Assembly: GCA_019894655.1 (NCBI GenBank)
Contig: JAGXNZ010000404.1
Coordinates: 1-6,009, forward strand
From: Promethearchaeota archaeon
GTDB lineage: Archaea > Asgardarchaeota > Lokiarchaeia > Sigynarchaeales > SOKP01
Direction: 5' to 3'
DNA length: 6,009 nt
Shown here: positions 33 through 6,009 of the stretch, one piece after another
Numbering within the stretch: the stretch's first letter is position 1
How the letters are laid out: each line of letters begins with the position of its first letter
Translations under genes and position numbers: made by a program
The notes under the pieces: generated by a model
The model's input: only the letters and a program-made list of their open reading frames with translations
Told to the model about the DNA's origin: nothing
Databases searched by the model: none

Positions 33-50
33 CAAAATGTGTTCAGAATA

Positions 51-455
51 ATGAAAGAAGTCAAGATTCTTACAATTGACGAACGAGGGAGGATCGTAAT
101 TCCACAAATTGTAAGAAAATCTTTAGGGATTACGACAAATTCACAACTTATGATGATTAGTGACTCAGAAGCCAAAGAAATTAAGATTACTCCAGTAGGA
201 TTACGTAGTGAAAGTGATCTCATTAAACTGAGAATAACAATGGGTGACACTCCTGGAGCATTGGCTAAATTAGCAACAACTTTTGGAGATTTAAAGCTTA
301 GTATGATGTATAGTGAGGCAGTGATTGTAGAAAAAGATAAATCGGCTGTTTGGACAGTAATCTCGGAAAGTCCAAGTTTTCCCATAGAAGAGCTAGAAAA
401 GATATTAATGGAAAAAGGAGAAGCTCTCAAAATCGAGTTCCTTTCTTTAGAATAA
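51..455 (+). CDS. SpoVT/AbrB-ACT domain transcriptional regulator
   Basis: A 134-residue protein. Residues about 4-48 match a SpoVT/AbrB swapped-hairpin DNA-binding domain: the run ILTIDERGRIVIPQIVRKSL is the classic 'D-x-x-GRI-x-IP-x-x-x-R' signature. Residues about 57-134 look like an ACT domain, with the hallmark DTPGAL turn at 66-71, where ACT domains bind small ligands, often amino acids. The expected role is a dimeric DNA-binding regulator that responds to a metabolite; both the ligand and the target are unknown. An in-frame GTG lies at 39, but the ATG at 51 is preferred because the AbrB strand begins immediately after it and a TATA-like box sits about 24 nt upstream. The gene is followed after 38 nt by the coiled-coil gene and is probably co-transcribed with it. 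It could regulate the cluster, but no operator can be identified here. Confidence 0.88.
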   Translation: MKEVKILTIDERGRIVIPQIVRKSLGITTNSQLMMISDSEAKEIKITPVGLRSESDLIKLRITMGDTPGALAKLATTFGDLKLSMMYSEAVIVEKDKSAVWTVISESPSFPIEELEKILMEKGEALKIEFLSLE

Positions 456-493: not shown

Positions 494-1222
494 ATGGCAA
501 AGAATAAAAAGAAAGATAAAGAAAAAAGTGTTGTAGAATCACCTACTCCGAATCTGAATAATGTATTAAAATCGTCAAAGAAAACCGAATCAACTTTACA
601 CGGATTACTTAAAGTAGTAACCGAAGAAAAAAGTTTTGCCTCTTCAACTAAGAAAGAAGAAAAAATAGCCCCCCAACTTTCATATGAAACCAAAAAGCAA
701 ATTGCTGAAGATTACATGATGGAACTAGTTCCCCTCTCAGAAAGAGCACCGCATAAGAAAAGAATCCCCATTTCAACTATTGCTGAAGAGGTAAAAAGTT
801 CAGAAGATGATAAAGCTCCAACATCAAGTACAATTGAAAAACCTTCATTCTCAAAGGAAGAGAATATATACGAAAAGTTAACTGTTTTTTTTGAGGACAT
901 ATTTGATAGCTATGTAGATAGATATAACCAGTGGGAAAATTCTATATCCTCCATTCTCTCAATCCTTAGGAAAATGAGGAAAATTACCAAAAAAAACACA
1001 GAGGAGCTAGTCTCCTCAATAAGCGGTATTTATGAAAAAATCGATTATAATCTGGATCAATTCAAATTAAAAAGAGATCAAGTTGAAAAAATTACCGATG
1101 TAGATGTCGAATCTATGTCAAGTGAATTTAAAAAGGTTTTAGGATTATTAGAATTACAAGTGAAAGAATATCAATTAAAAAAGTTATCAGATGAGTACGT
1201 TCATCAGCAGCAATCATTCTGA
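494..1222 (+). CDS. Hypothetical Lys-rich protein with coiled-coil C-terminal half
   Basis: A 242-residue protein of no recognised family. Residues 1-12 are very lysine-rich (MAKNKKKDKEK). Residues about 13-120 are rich in Lys, Ser, Glu and Pro and look largely disordered, with one helix-like patch around 56-75. From about residue 123 to 236 the sequence is amphipathic and helical, with regularly spaced Leu, Ile and Phe and few Pro or Gly, suggesting a coiled coil or helical bundle. It ends in HQQQSF. There is no signal peptide or membrane segment. The start is set by the GGTGAG site 8 nt upstream. It sits directly before an actin-family gene, so it could be an actin partner (bundler, nucleator or anchor), by loose analogy with the coiled-coil arcadins encoded beside crenactin. 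I see no sequence similarity to arcadins, so this is context only. Confidence 0.75.
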   Translation: MAKNKKKDKEKSVVESPTPNLNNVLKSSKKTESTLHGLLKVVTEEKSFASSTKKEEKIAPQLSYETKKQIAEDYMMELVPLSERAPHKKRIPISTIAEEVKSSEDDKAPTSSTIEKPSFSKEENIYEKLTVFFEDIFDSYVDRYNQWENSISSILSILRKMRKITKKNTEELVSSISGIYEKIDYNLDQFKLKRDQVEKITDVDVESMSSEFKKVLGLLELQVKEYQLKKLSDEYVHQQQSF

Positions 1223-1276: not shown

Positions 1277-2461
1277 ATGGCAAATAGTGAAAACAATTAT
1301 TTAACTCCATTAATTCTCGATATTGGGAGTAATAATTTCAGATTAGGATGGGCTGGAGGAGATTTTCCAGATATTATTGCTCCTAGCGTATATGTTGATA
1401 TTGCTGATTATCTTTTTACTTCTGATATCAGTGGATCAGACACTATTAGTGGTTTGGAAGAAATATTTCTTGATACGGATACTCAGATACATTTGGTTGG
1501 TTTTGATGCGCTTAAATATCAAAACATCTTAAAGATTCGAGAGTTTAGTAAAGAGAAAGACTATAACATTCTATCCAAGTTTTTTTCCCATTACTACCAA
1601 CAATTAAACATTCCAGTGGAATCGCATTTTAAGCAACCGTTAATAATTATAACTCCATTCTATAAATCGGAATTAGAAAAATCAAAACTCCAAGAGGTAT
1701 TTTTTAATTCTTTAAACTTCCCTTATATTTTGTTTTTACCCGAGAGTCAAGCTATTCTATCGACATTACAAAAATCTAGTGGAATTGTGGTGAATATCGG
1801 AGAATCTTATACGTCAATCTCTTCAATTTTTCATGGGTTTACTAACTTAATGGCGAGAGATATGTTTCCAATAACAGGTAAAAATATTACTAATTATCTC
1901 CTAAATCTAATTTTAAGCAAGATTAGCTCCTCAAAAAACACGTATCTCGATAAAAAGATTACTAAGGAGATTAAAGATAAAATATCTCTTTGTATTCTCG
2001 ATCCTAAGGAAGAAAGGAAAAGAGTTAAAGAGGGGTTAACTAAATACGATCGAATCATTGATTTACCAGATGGAAGCAAATTAAAATTGAACTCTGAGCG
2101 GTTTCTCTTGTCAGAACCTCTATTCGATCCTAAGATCATTCATATCGATTACATAGGATTAGCTGAAGCTATTTCAAAAGTAGTAATGTCGTGGGACAGA
2201 GAAAATTGGGAAGAACTCCTGTCTAACGTGATACTTTCAGGAGGAAGTAGCTTGATTACAGGATTGAGTGAAAGAATCGAAGTTGAATTACAGAAGTTTT
2301 TTTCAGAAAAGTTAAAACCAAAAATCAAAGTAGTAGCAGCCTCCGGAAGAGAAAACATGGGTTGGATTGGAGCTTCAGTTCTATTTTCAAAAGACCAATT
2401 AAAGAAAGGGTGGATTAGAAATCCTTCTCATCAGGAGTTAGAGCAACAACAAGCTGGTTAA
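1277..2461 (+). CDS. Divergent actin-family protein (actin-related)
   Basis: A 394-residue protein that aligns along its length with eukaryotic-type actin (about 375 residues). Landmarks: phosphate-1 LILDIGSNNF with D15 (actin D11); Q158 in ESQAIL (actin Q137); phosphate-2 GIVVNIGES at 169-177; GKNITNYLL matching actin GRDLTDYLM; LPDG at 263-266 followed by NSERF; the adenosine motif NVILSGGSS with S321-G322-G323; and WIG at 363-365. Departures from actin: the D154 equivalent is N173, the H161 equivalent appears to be S180, K18 is R22, and the subdomain-2 region is about 16 residues longer. These suggest ATP binding with weakened or altered hydrolysis. A TTG-initiated extension from 1232 is possible, but the ATG at 1277 matches the actin N-terminus better. 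It is too divergent to call a canonical lokiactin, so an ARP-like role is more likely. Flanked by a coiled-coil gene and a CHAT gene on the same strand. Confidence 0.92.
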   Translation: MANSENNYLTPLILDIGSNNFRLGWAGGDFPDIIAPSVYVDIADYLFTSDISGSDTISGLEEIFLDTDTQIHLVGFDALKYQNILKIREFSKEKDYNILSKFFSHYYQQLNIPVESHFKQPLIIITPFYKSELEKSKLQEVFFNSLNFPYILFLPESQAILSTLQKSSGIVVNIGESYTSISSIFHGFTNLMARDMFPITGKNITNYLLNLILSKISSSKNTYLDKKITKEIKDKISLCILDPKEERKRVKEGLTKYDRIIDLPDGSKLKLNSERFLLSEPLFDPKIIHIDYIGLAEAISKVVMSWDRENWEELLSNVILSGGSSLITGLSERIEVELQKFFSEKLKPKIKVVAASGRENMGWIGASVLFSKDQLKKGWIRNPSHQELEQQQAG

Positions 2462-2485: not shown

Positions 2486-2504
2486 ATTAGAAGTAGTGGA
2501 AAGC

Positions 2505-5093
2505 ATGGTTATTAGTTTAAGCACGCGATCAGAATTCCTAAAGGGATTCCAAAAGAAAGTTATTCAAGGAAGAAAACTGTTACAGTTTTCAAATCATCTT
2601 TGGGCAGATAGATTATTGACTGATTTATATTTTGATATCGAAAAAACTGAATGGCTCGATATCCAAAAAAAGCATCAATTAATAATGATTATATCAAATT
2701 CTTGGTGGATGTATATCAATTCATTGATTCATAGGACTGAAGAGGGTATTGACATAGATTTTATTAGATATGTCGATGCATATAAACGTTTTTTTTCGTT
2801 TTTGTCTAAATTAGACGATTTTTACCTACTTAATAACTTTGCAACTAACTTACTTAAATCATTTACTAAAATGGATTCTTTATCTCAAAAGGGTATAACA
2901 AAGTTTATCAATTCTTTCTGTGTCAAGGTAATTGAAAGGGAAGATTATATCAAGTTAATCGAATTGCAGTTAGTTTTGATGTATTTAAGAAAATCAGTTG
3001 TTCCTCAGGAGTTTTTTCATTTAAGTATGGAGGTGTTAGGTAGAACAATTTTTAAACTCGAACCAGGGAAACGGGCTTTATTTCTCTATGTTTTTATAGA
3101 GAACGTGAATGTAAATTTTCAACTGATGGAGAATTCTGAAGAATTCGTAAAGATTATGATTAAAATCTTGGTAAATAGAATTCCAGGCTATTTAAAGAAC
3201 GAATTTAGTAATATGGGTAAGATTTCAATTAATGAACGAAATTTTAACACTATTTTAGGGGATTTAGAAGGATTAATTTATTACTTAAACAACATTGGAG
3301 AGCATTCTTGGATAATTCCTATTATAAAAAATCTATTTTCTAAAATTCAAGCGTTCCATTCATATGGAGATGCCGTTACATATATCAGGAAATTTATAGA
3401 TTTTGCAATTACTAGAAATAGATTTGAGATTGCGTTTCAAATTTACGATTTTCTCGAAGATCTTTTCTTGTATCAGACGGATCTTGGATACGATAACATT
3501 TTAATTGAACTTTGGGTCGAGGCATGCAAAAAATTCGTAGAAATGAAGGAAAAGAAATATCTTTTGCAATCTATTGAAAAGTTAAATACACACCTAAAAA
3601 TTCCTCAAACTAATGCTCAACTGTATCACTTCTTTTATACATGTAATTTCTTATGGAAATTTAAGTCATTATTTTTCTCATTAGAACAAAAAGATTTTTG
3701 GCAAATGATGTTTTATCGAGTTGTATATGAGCAAAAAGATTTTAAACTCGCTCAAAAAATTATACCTTATTTAGAGAAAAACTTAATAAATGCAATTGGC
3801 AATACTCTTGTTTTATATAACGAGACGGAATCACTTAGAAGAGAAATTTATTCTTTTGGAAAGGAAAACTTACTTTTTACTGGTTTTGAAGAAGGGTTTG
3901 TAATAAAAAAGATGGTATTTAGGATAGACCACGAGGGTTTAATTTCTATTCGAATGATATCCGTTGATGATAAAATAGTTGAGGGAAAAATTTTCAACGA
4001 ATATTGGAACGATGCACATATAATAGATATTTATAATGACATTTTTTCAGACGGCCAAGAAAAAAAATATAACTTTAGCGTAAACGAATTCGGTAGGTTG
4101 TTATATGTATTTCTACCAATTAAAATTCGCACCTTTTTAGAGCAGTTTGAGATTAAGTCTTTAAATATCACACCCGAAATTTATTTTATTTTAGATGAGA
4201 TGACGATTCCTTTCGAATTGATTTATGACAATAATTTTTTCTTATTAAAATATTCTATTGGGTATATCATTGGAGAACCACCTCTTGGAGGGGTCCCTTT
4301 TGGACACGATACGGATGAAAAAGAAGAAAAGCTAACGAGAGACGGTAATTTCAATGTCCTGATCATCGATTCCATAAATTCTTCAGGACCTATAACGTGG
4401 AACGAAGAAATTAAATCAAAAGAGTTAATATTCCCTTTCAAATCAGGAATTAATGAATTTAACTATATAGCTGAATTTTTCAACAATCGCGAAGAGGTAA
4501 ATCAAATAACCGTCTTAATGGGCCCTGATTCTTCTCGAGATAATATTCTAACACATATAGAAACTGGATCGAATCATATCATCCATTTTGTTGGAAATAT
4601 TTTTTATTCAAAATGGAATCCAAGGGATAGCTTTTTCCTCTCTAATGATAATGAAATAATAACATTTAATGATATTAACAATTCAATAAAAGCGAACTCT
4701 AGCGCAGAAAAACCGTTTTTGTTTTTTAATTCTCAAATTTATGATACTGATGGTAAAAAGTTAAAGAATGTTTTACGCACATTTGGAGAAATAGTTGAAT
4801 ATTTCGATTATGAGCGAATTACAGGTGTAATGTCCAGAAATTATCCGATCTTTAATGACGAGACAAAGGAAATAATCGCTAACTTTTATATCAATTTATT
4901 TAACGATTTTAGCCAAGGTGTTTCCCTTATGAAGGCACGACAAACATGTATGGCAAATAAAATGACTAAGCTTGTAGAAAAGAAATTTGATGAGTTATCG
5001 GCAGAGGAGGGCGTAAAAAACATTGATTTAGAAGGATCACTAGCTATCTCAAGCTATATGCTTTTTGGTAAACCTTGGAAAAAATTAAGTTAG
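2505..5093 (+). CDS. Helical-repeat protein with catalytically degenerate CHAT domain
   Basis: An 862-residue protein. Residues about 1-455 are almost wholly helical and look like a TPR-type or other alpha-solenoid, without crisp TPR consensus. Residues about 464-525 form a beta-rich linker of the kind that often precedes CHAT. Residues about 526-862 match a CHAT domain (clan CD, caspase/separase fold): GRLLY at 530-534, IPFELIYD at 568-575 (usual form 'lPWELlyd'), HIIHFVGN at 691-698, PFLFFNSQ at 737-744, GVMSRNYPIFNDE from 774, FYINLF at 794-799, and a terminal SSYMLFGKPW. In active members the fourth motif reads 'HFa-x-HG' and the fifth 'L-x-AC'. Here the catalytic His position is N698 and the Cys position is Q744, so peptidase activity is unlikely. 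A GTG at 2496 would add three residues; the ATG at 2505 is preferred from the TATA spacing. No membrane segments. Likely a scaffold or sensor; the separase-like layout (helical superhelix plus C-terminal protease fold) is notable but unproven. Confidence 0.85.
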   Translation: MVISLSTRSEFLKGFQKKVIQGRKLLQFSNHLWADRLLTDLYFDIEKTEWLDIQKKHQLIMIISNSWWMYINSLIHRTEEGIDIDFIRYVDAYKRFFSFLSKLDDFYLLNNFATNLLKSFTKMDSLSQKGITKFINSFCVKVIEREDYIKLIELQLVLMYLRKSVVPQEFFHLSMEVLGRTIFKLEPGKRALFLYVFIENVNVNFQLMENSEEFVKIMIKILVNRIPGYLKNEFSNMGKISINERNFNTILGDLEGLIYYLNNIGEHSWIIPIIKNLFSKIQAFHSYGDAVTYIRKFIDFAITRNRFEIAFQIYDFLEDLFLYQTDLGYDNILIELWVEACKKFVEMKEKKYLLQSIEKLNTHLKIPQTNAQLYHFFYTCNFLWKFKSLFFSLEQKDFWQMMFYRVVYEQKDFKLAQKIIPYLEKNLINAIGNTLVLYNETESLRREIYSFGKENLLFTGFEEGFVIKKMVFRIDHEGLISIRMISVDDKIVEGKIFNEYWNDAHIIDIYNDIFSDGQEKKYNFSVNEFGRLLYVFLPIKIRTFLEQFEIKSLNITPEIYFILDEMTIPFELIYDNNFFLLKYSIGYIIGEPPLGGVPFGHDTDEKEEKLTRDGNFNVLIIDSINSSGPITWNEEIKSKELIFPFKSGINEFNYIAEFFNNREEVNQITVLMGPDSSRDNILTHIETGSNHIIHFVGNIFYSKWNPRDSFFLSNDNEIITFNDINNSIKANSSAEKPFLFFNSQIYDTDGKKLKNVLRTFGEIVEYFDYERITGVMSRNYPIFNDETKEIIANFYINLFNDFSQGVSLMKARQTCMANKMTKLVEKKFDELSAEEGVKNIDLEGSLAISSYMLFGKPWKKLS

Positions 5094-5196: not shown

Positions 5197-5736
5197 ATGT
5201 CAGATAGGATTATTGAACTCCGCGTTGAAAATAACAGACTTAAGAATGAGGTACAAAATTTAGAAAATAAAGTATTATCATTAGTAGGAATGATTAGTTT
5301 AGAACCTTCGGGAGGTCCTGAACGCAAGAATGTTCTCAATGAGCATTTAATTAATCTAATTACTTCAACATCTATTCAACTTAATATTGTTTCACCTAAA
5401 ATCGATAAATTTTACAGCATAGAACTTAAAAAGCTGACTGAGAAAGGAATTCCAATACTTATCATTACTAACGATAGAGGTAGTATTCCAAAAATTTACC
5501 AAGAAATCTATGACGATTTAAAAAAAACTTCAGGAATAAGCATAATTAATAACCCAAATGTTAGATATCTATTAATTTTCAATGCTGAAGAAGGTATTTA
5601 TTCCGGTGGCTCATTAGATAAAGAAGAACTAGAAAAATCTATTCTTATTATTACGCGTATCAAAGAAAGCGCTAAACTCAGAAAAATCGCTGAAATATTT
5701 AGTTTAATGCTCCCCTCTTTTATGAGGAGCAAATAA
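5197..5736 (+). CDS. Leucine-zipper protein with PLD-like domain lacking HKD
   Basis: A 179-residue protein in two parts. Residues 3-31 form a textbook short coiled coil: Leu at 8, 15, 22 and 29 (d positions) and I5, N12, V19, V26 (a positions). An Asn at a central a position favours parallel dimers in known zippers. Residues about 47-172 resemble the phospholipase-D-like fold seen in PLD-type nucleases and in the effector domain of archaeal TrmB regulators: an N-terminal helix, LNIVSPKID, then GIPILIITN, then NVRYLLIFNAEEGIYSGGSL at 121-140, where HKD enzymes place their catalytic motif and trailing G-S. The His and Lys are absent, so a catalytic role is unlikely. The domain call is tentative because it rests on strand pattern and the GG-S turn. 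No separate DNA-binding domain is visible. It may act as a dimeric binding or adaptor protein. Confidence 0.7.
   Translation: MSDRIIELRVENNRLKNEVQNLENKVLSLVGMISLEPSGGPERKNVLNEHLINLITSTSIQLNIVSPKIDKFYSIELKKLTEKGIPILIITNDRGSIPKIYQEIYDDLKKTSGISIINNPNVRYLLIFNAEEGIYSGGSLDKEELEKSILIITRIKESAKLRKIAEIFSLMLPSFMRSK
5709..5730 (+). other. GC-rich hairpin at the 3' end of the zipper/PLD-like gene
   Basis: An inverted repeat pairs GCTCC-c-CTC (5709-5717) with GAGGAGC (5724-5730) around a six-base TTTTAT loop, with one bulged C. It overlaps the last codons of the gene (Met-Leu-Pro-Ser-Phe-Met-Arg-Ser). It stands out as a GC-rich stem in very AT-rich DNA. A T-rich run (5751-5761) lies about 20 nt downstream, too far for a classical intrinsic terminator. 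It may stabilise or process the 3' end, or it may be a by-product of the coding sequence. Confidence 0.3.
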
Positions 5737-5779: not shown

Positions 5780-5941
5780 ATGAAGATGACAAATCATTCT
5801 AAGTCTGAGAAATCTAGGGAAAAGGAAGAAAAGAACAAAGATAATTCTGTTAATGATGACAATTTCGATCCTTCGATTTCTAAAAATAAATTTGATTGGG
5901 ATTTCATACTTGAAAGAGAATGGTCGAGAACAAAAAAGTAA
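5780..5941 (+). CDS. Small charged hypothetical protein (53 aa)
   Basis: This short reading frame runs from ATG to TAA and encodes 53 residues. The first 30 are hydrophilic and probably disordered, dominated by Lys, Glu, Ser, Asp and Asn. The C-terminal part (residues 38-48, FDWDFILEREW) is a compact aromatic and acidic stretch that could form a short amphipathic helix or a peptide ligand for a partner. The upstream GAAAGTGGGA (5762-5771) is a purine-rich, weak Shine-Dalgarno candidate 8 nt before the ATG. The gene lies 43 nt after the zipper/PLD-like gene, and the next gene begins inside its last codons, which supports it being a real member of the series. No family is recognised. The opposite strand is also open here but has no supporting context. 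Confidence 0.5.
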   Translation: MKMTNHSKSEKSREKEEKNKDNSVNDDNFDPSISKNKFDWDFILEREWSRTKK

Positions 5942-6009
5942 TAGCCTCCCAAAAAATTGCTGAATTCTTTGGATTGGGGACAAAATTCTATGAGGAAACC
6001 TTTAAATTC
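5920..6009 (+). CDS. Start of a downstream gene, truncated by the window end
   Basis: An open frame from ATG at 5920 reads 30 codons without a stop to the last base of the window, beginning MVENKKVIASQKIAEFFGLG. It overlaps the preceding small gene by 22 nt in a different frame, an arrangement typical of translationally coupled genes. GAAAGAG immediately upstream is purine-rich but too close to act as a normal Shine-Dalgarno site. The visible part looks like a soluble protein with an N-terminal amphipathic helix. Thirty residues are not enough to assign a family. Confidence 0.5.
   Translation, partial: MVENKKVIASQKIAEFFGLGTKFYEETFKF

Follow-up and report, generated by a model that had tools for sequence, protein, structure and literature searches.

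A CHAT-fold protein without its catalytic dyad, encoded beside a divergent actin-related protein in Asgard archaea

The DNA analysed here, which we call the window, is a stretch of 6,009 nucleotides. It carries five collinear genes on the plus strand, in the order AbrB-ACT, coiled-coil, actin-related protein (ARP), pseudo-CHAT and PLD-fold. The features discussed below are the following.

39..455, plus strand: AbrB-type DNA-binding and ACT-like protein, from profile matches; a likely regulator
494..1222, plus strand: protein whose N-terminus varies and whose C-terminal region is conserved and helical (coiled-coil-like), with no Pfam family above cut-off
1277..2461, plus strand: divergent ARP with the Asp154 and His161 equivalents replaced (Pfam actin E 5e-51); start probably ATG 1277
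2496..5093, plus strand: helical-repeat and pseudo-CHAT protein; likely start ATG 2505
2517..3836, plus strand: TPR-like alpha-helical repeat region, residues 8-447, from AF2 secondary structure
4344..5090, plus strand: CHAT fold, residues 617-865, from the AF2 model and structure matches
4596..4598, plus strand: Asn701, at the catalytic His position in the alignment with intact CHATs
4734..4736, plus strand: Gln747, aligned with the catalytic Cys by hhalign and placed one residue before it by MAFFT
5197..5736, plus strand: protein of 179 aa with an N-terminal helix and a PLD fold without HKD; weak PLD match

The last bases of the window (5920-6009) are the start of a sixth gene, matched by eye to L001:9113-9669, and at two loci a sixth gene downstream (L009:10893-13088, L055:8246-10450) resembles Eco57I-type DNA methylases. 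Genes for Roadblock/LC7 and Arf/Ras-like GTPase proteins are seen near the cluster in some genomes (L001:464-853; L055:10569-11186; L043:2617-3114).

The fourth gene is an open frame of 865 amino acids from the GTG at 2496, or of 862 from the ATG at 2505, which encodes M4 and is at least 90% conserved in a 44-row alignment. Residue numbers are counted here from the GTG, so N701 and Q747 are the N698 and Q744 of a sequence-only reading made earlier of this DNA. A Pfam scan of the protein gave no TPR match, though the AF2 model shows a helical repeat; TPR solenoids (LGN, KLC1) appear among the weaker Foldseek rows, at E of about 0.01-0.03. Several Cys and His residues of this part (window 2595-3644) are strongly conserved among the 120 homologues listed of 259, namely H34 (116/120), C344 (110/120), H366 (119/120), H378 (120/120) and C383 (100/120).

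The assignment of the C-terminal part to CHAT was assessed by both profile and structure comparison. The Pfam CHAT profile (PF12770) matches the window protein with E 2.6e-4 and 21 bits, just below the 24-bit cut-off; it matches 31 of 44 relatives at E<=0.01 (best 5.1e-8), and several orthologues lie above the curated cut-off. When the family profile (A1) was compared with that of three intact Asgard CHATs (A5) by hhalign, a profile-profile method, a probability of 98.2% and an E of 4.5e-14 were obtained over 286 columns. A caspase-like alpha/beta fold is present in the AF2 model of this part, as seen with Foldseek, and the profile comparison agrees. The structure prediction proposed in the sequence-only reading thus returned the CHAT fold, and the landmarks it had named, HIIHFVGN (starting at 4575) and PFLFFNSQ (at 4713), are present at the positions it gave. 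DdvA (8rot) is among the structural matches, with an rmsd of 24. An NCBIfam scan gave no match for the protein, and searching solved structures by sequence with the family profile brought up nothing of relevance, just one ribosomal protein at E 0.17.

As controls we used four dyad-keeping CHAT proteins of the same class (L059-L062; Pfam CHAT E 6.7e-29 to 4.2e-33), and the His/Cys pair is seen in all four when aligned. In two Asgard genomes, a Ras-like small GTPase is fused to an intact CHAT peptidase (L060:4077-5741 and L062:3708-5372), with Pfam Ras E of 5.6e-32 and 1.2e-36 and CHAT E of 1.2e-30 and 6.7e-29, respectively.

The profile comparison places N701 opposite the catalytic His (IHFVGN against IHFAGH) and Q747 opposite the catalytic Cys (FNSQ against INAC). 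The His position is ungapped and falls in the same column in both the profile-profile and the MAFFT alignments, whereas in the latter all four controls have their Cys opposite I748, one residue after Q747. Counts at these positions rest on two sets: the 120 homologues listed of 259, and a wider set of 143 rows, from which four of 132 proteins (shorter than 780 aa) were dropped, to which 14 divergent loci were added, and in which the window protein stands twice (W, P0001). Position 701 is Asn in 120/120 and in 142/143 rows, respectively, the one Ile belonging to the most divergent member (L048), and His is found in 0/143. Position 747 is Gln in 119/120 and in 137/143, with Arg in three rows and Lys, Pro and His in one each. 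Among the 249 CHAT positions, N701 ranks 16th in conservation and Q747 33rd. The earlier claim that both catalytic residues are replaced is therefore confirmed: the change of His to Asn and the loss of Cys are upheld, and the change of Cys to Gln at 747, as judged from alignment, is likely but not certain, with a register doubt of one residue. Whichever register is adopted, the alignments place no catalytic Cys in the family, and this is firm because Cys is found in 0/143 rows at 747 and in 0/143 at 748.

We also looked for a substitute pair, and for homologues with the original one, which the sequence-only reading had named as grounds for refutation. Within the CHAT domain the candidates C818 (Cys in 114/143), H694 (His in 96) and H697 (His in 75) were rejected as too variable, and the further well-conserved Cys/His columns (H34, H60, H175, C344, H366, H378 and C383) all lie in the helical-repeat part. 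The polar Asn and Gln kept at 701 and 747 would suit a hydrolase still active through other residues. This is extremely improbable for a CHAT domain that has no conserved Cys/His pair, and in which position 747 also accepts Arg, Lys, Pro and His and position 746 varies among Ser, Thr, Ala, Val, Cys (3/143 rows) and Gly. No orthologue with an intact pair was found among those read, and none of 12 distant relatives from a wider profile search has His at 701 or Cys at 747.

Outside the family, a readable His/Cys pair is found in ten of 12 CHAT matches from the same order (L106-L112, L122, L124, L127, L134 and L135; G161:C407, which has no locus, was left out), one of which, L108, is the same gene as control L059. 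By simple pattern search L111 and L122 have no readable pair. In L122, which lies in G162 and matches CHAT weakly, IHFSGLL stands where an intact CHAT has His after Gly; this is possibly another CHAT without a dyad.

The dN/dS of the CHAT part, determined by the Nei-Gojobori method, is 0.104, 0.141 and 0.130 against L001, L002 and L003, respectively, three more distant pairs being near or at dS saturation. The helical-repeat part gives 0.065-0.074 against the same three loci, meaning that the CHAT part evolves faster. Since the substitutions at 701 and 747 are fixed across the family and the CHAT dN/dS is low, these substitutions are old and maintained.

Damaged copies of the gene do occur elsewhere. 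In G134 (L028:1495-4098) two in-frame TAA codons lie near the domain boundaries of the CHAT gene, with intact neighbours, and this copy may be a pseudogene, a split gene or a sequence error. G104 and G116 each have one in-frame TAA in the gene. In G132 (L103:4649-7144) the protein is shortened at its C-terminus, no PLD gene follows and the genome has no PLD match. In G103 (L104:8161-8784) the ARP gene and most of the CHAT gene are gone, so that between the coiled-coil and PLD genes only a C-terminal piece of CHAT is left. These stops, truncations and remnants are what a dying gene, an isolated mutant or an assembly error might look like, but for the window such an account is refuted and we give it a negligible chance: the same substitutions recur in 142/143 and 137/143 rows, the frame is open and dN/dS is about 0.1.

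We compared the two edges of the sheet, picked from secondary structure and not from coordinates. Mean entropy is 1.58 bits (63 positions) at the edge of the would-be active site, which includes N701 and Q747 themselves, and 2.30 bits (41 positions) at the opposite edge, a contrast that fails for strand 2 (2.02 against 2.00 bits). N628, P632, W635, P709 and S712 are invariant or near-invariant. Overall, the fixed substitutions, the purifying selection and the confirmed fold lead us to conclude that the protein is almost certainly a selected pseudo-peptidase, as had been proposed from the sequence, and the homologue alignment and dN/dS analysis suggested at that time gave the same answer.

The setting of the gene is highly regular. 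For the genes they hold, all 48 non-duplicate loci picked by CHAT match are collinear and on one strand; this set omits ten duplicate loci (L011-L020), the four controls and loci fetched after L062. The ARP gene lies directly upstream of CHAT in 46 of 47 loci with at least 1100 bases of room, the exception being the deletion remnant L052, and the PLD gene lies directly downstream in 42/42 loci with at least 600 bases of room. The gap between the ARP and CHAT genes runs from -71 to 95 bases, and the cluster may well be co-transcribed.

The ARP belongs to the actin family, as lokiactin and the Asgard ARPs do, and differs from them in being a divergent paralogue with replaced hydrolysis-site residues. 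In G001 it scores 166 bits against the Pfam actin model, compared to 427 for the best actin. We take Asp154 and His161 to be hydrolysis-site residues of actin, in both numbering and role. Among ARP matches of at least 385 bits (a cut set by us; the next match has 211 bits), the His161 equivalent is lost in 47/47, and the Asp154 equivalent is Asn or Ser in 45/47 and Asp in 2/47. Reference actins keep each of the two residues in 14 of 16 cases, these being the 16 of 30 fetched loci that passed a motif filter, which the other 14 failed. The cluster ARP would presumably not hydrolyse ATP. For ‘Ca. L. ossiferum’, four actin homologues are reported in PMC9834061.

The protein encoded downstream matches the PLD fold, with the HKD motif in 0/24 sequences, and is similar both to TrmB-type sensor domains and to nucleases. 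Compared with the PLD-fold domain of FAM83 (DUF1669), it is a protein of 179 aa with an N-terminal helix, and sequence identity is 12-17%. More remote homologues of the PLD-fold protein are encoded outside the cluster in G092 and G093, with up to three per genome (L097-L101).

Across the 79 genomes of the order, 54 have both a cluster-type ARP and CHAT, 22 have neither, two have CHAT only (G103, the remnant, and G104, at a contig end) and one has ARP only (G119, at a contig end). Fisher's test gives p 3e-16, a value that ignores phylogeny in a set of related genomes. The PLD gene is present in 50 of the 56 CHAT genomes and occurs without CHAT in six (G095-G098, G139 and G149). G095 and G096 lack both ARP and CHAT, and their AbrB-ACT, coiled-coil and PLD genes follow one another directly. 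G097 and G098 have adjacent coiled-coil and PLD genes, and the fetched region has no AbrB-ACT, ARP or CHAT match. Two large ORFs there were considered as a diverged ARP/CHAT pair and rejected, since they encode an ERCC4-type helicase and a protein of the PHP type. G103 has clearly lost ARP and most of CHAT, whereas G095-G098 may have lost the two genes or never had them.

Of these observations, the shared absence of ARP and CHAT speaks most strongly for the two acting as a pair. Together with the gene cluster it leads us to favour, among the regulatory, scaffolding and substrate-binding roles named in the sequence-only reading, scaffolding with this ARP, a protein which that finding does not mention. 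Co-presence may come in part from shared ancestry and a single gene cluster, which speaks against the scaffold reading. So do the damaged copies and the genomes with no match, the variation at 701 and 747, the missing PLD match in G132, the quicker evolution of the CHAT part and, for use of the old pocket, the failing contrast at strand 2. The pseudo-peptidase could instead be tied to the ARP by gene-cluster economy, each protein acting separately; adjacent genes are often linked without their products binding, and G103 is a single clear loss event. We consider this quite improbable, given that ARP and CHAT are jointly absent from G095 and G096, where the other three genes are kept, and that G103 has lost the ARP along with most of CHAT.

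Of 227 genomes in G001's phylum, 58 have a match to the family profile, as do 58 of 83 in its class and 56 of 79 in its order; no family match is found in the other 23 of the 79, genomes that may be incomplete. The two genomes beyond the order, G090 and G091, give weak matches through other CHATs; of these four matches, the three that were read keep the dyad intact, the fourth being G090:C195. The pseudo-CHAT is therefore seen in one order only among the 227 genomes. Ten named relatives are Lokiarchaeota/Lokiarchaeia MAGs, and a few of the 120 homologues listed of 259 bear the labels Hermodarchaeota, Hodarchaeota or Thorarchaeota, as given by their source. One homologue (P0131) is DSAG12_01480 of Promethearchaeum syntrophicum, an organism in culture; it has Asn at 701 and His at 747, and one source names it ‘CHAT domain protein’.

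Among known systems, we see a likeness to Csx29 (TPR-CHAT; Craspase, type III-E CRISPR), in which helical repeats are likewise followed by a caspase-like region. Foldseek gives E 6.2e-7 (8eey_B), 3.3e-6 (8eex_B) and 5.6e-6 (7y85_D), with a full-length TM no higher than 0.24 and an rmsd of about 27. The caspase clan is already known to include pseudo-peptidases, and PMC10028731 describes Csx29 itself as having TPR repeats, a CHAT1 that is a pseudo-caspase and a CHAT2 that is active, with H615 and C658. Unlike Csx29, the protein studied here lacks His and Cys in the very domain that matches active CHATs and has an actin-related protein as its neighbour; there is no gRAMP/Cas7-11-like gene among the five clustered genes. 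Compared to the SAVED-CHAT filament protease (8tl0), it has no SAVED domain in the Pfam scan and no dyad. Separase, a protease, shares the helical repeats and CHAT-like domain (Foldseek E 5.5e-5 to 7.4e-4, four rows below 0.001), and differs by its dyad.

The closest solved folds include CRISPR-linked and SAVED CHATs. These, and the likeness of the PLD-fold partner to both TrmB-type sensor domains and nucleases, would fit an allosteric or ligand-sensing CHAT module in defence or signalling, with the ARP as effector and not as scaffold partner. That arrangement is possible but unlikely: no PADLOC profile matched any of the three window proteins scanned out of five (CHAT, ARP and PLD-fold; 0 families), and each carrier genome has a single copy of the gene, in a constant gene order that is seen in one archaeal order. 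By analogy to c-FLIP, a pseudo-peptidase that acts on caspase-8, the protein might instead inhibit or regulate an active CHAT paralogue in the same cell, a role that its established pseudo-peptidase status would permit. Another CHAT match (E<=0.001) is found in only six of the 56 carriers (G001, G008, G010, G094, G124 and G146), genomes here too being perhaps incomplete, which argues against such an inhibitor and makes it very unlikely.

The loss of the catalytic residues and the position beside an unusual actin gene suggest that the protein probably serves an actin-linked complex as a partner for structure or sensing, and not as an enzyme. In the mechanism we propose, a lineage-specific CHAT peptidase would have exchanged catalysis for binding. 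Encoded in one apparent operon with the divergent ARP, it would most likely bind that ARP, with the helical-repeat part holding the partner and the CHAT part binding a peptide or ligand uncut, perhaps along the former active-site edge, which is the better conserved one. The coiled-coil and HKD-less PLD-fold products would join in a non-catalytic actin-linked scaffold or sensor, with the AbrB-ACT protein as probable regulator. This account, in which a scaffold or sensor without proteolytic activity would bind an ARP that does not hydrolyse ATP, is the one we find somewhat likely.

More tentatively, and with a little less than an even chance in our view, the genes may encode an undescribed Asgard module, in which a helical-repeat pseudo-caspase, with an HKD-less PLD-fold protein as partner, holds an ARP incapable of ATP hydrolysis, three enzyme folds having jointly turned non-catalytic as a scaffold or switch. 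The literature searched, which lies apart from most subscription papers and all bioRxiv preprints, holds no account of a CHAT pseudo-peptidase in an actin-linked Asgard cluster, and the part of review PMC12993045 at hand has no word starting with ‘chat’. What appears new against the papers searched is a family-wide CHAT pseudo-peptidase tied to an ARP in Asgard archaea. It is a concrete candidate for an actin partner specific to Asgard archaea, with a homologue in the named species P. syntrophicum. If the module proposal is true, three enzyme folds would have been made into one non-catalytic actin-linked device in the archaea closest to eukaryotes.
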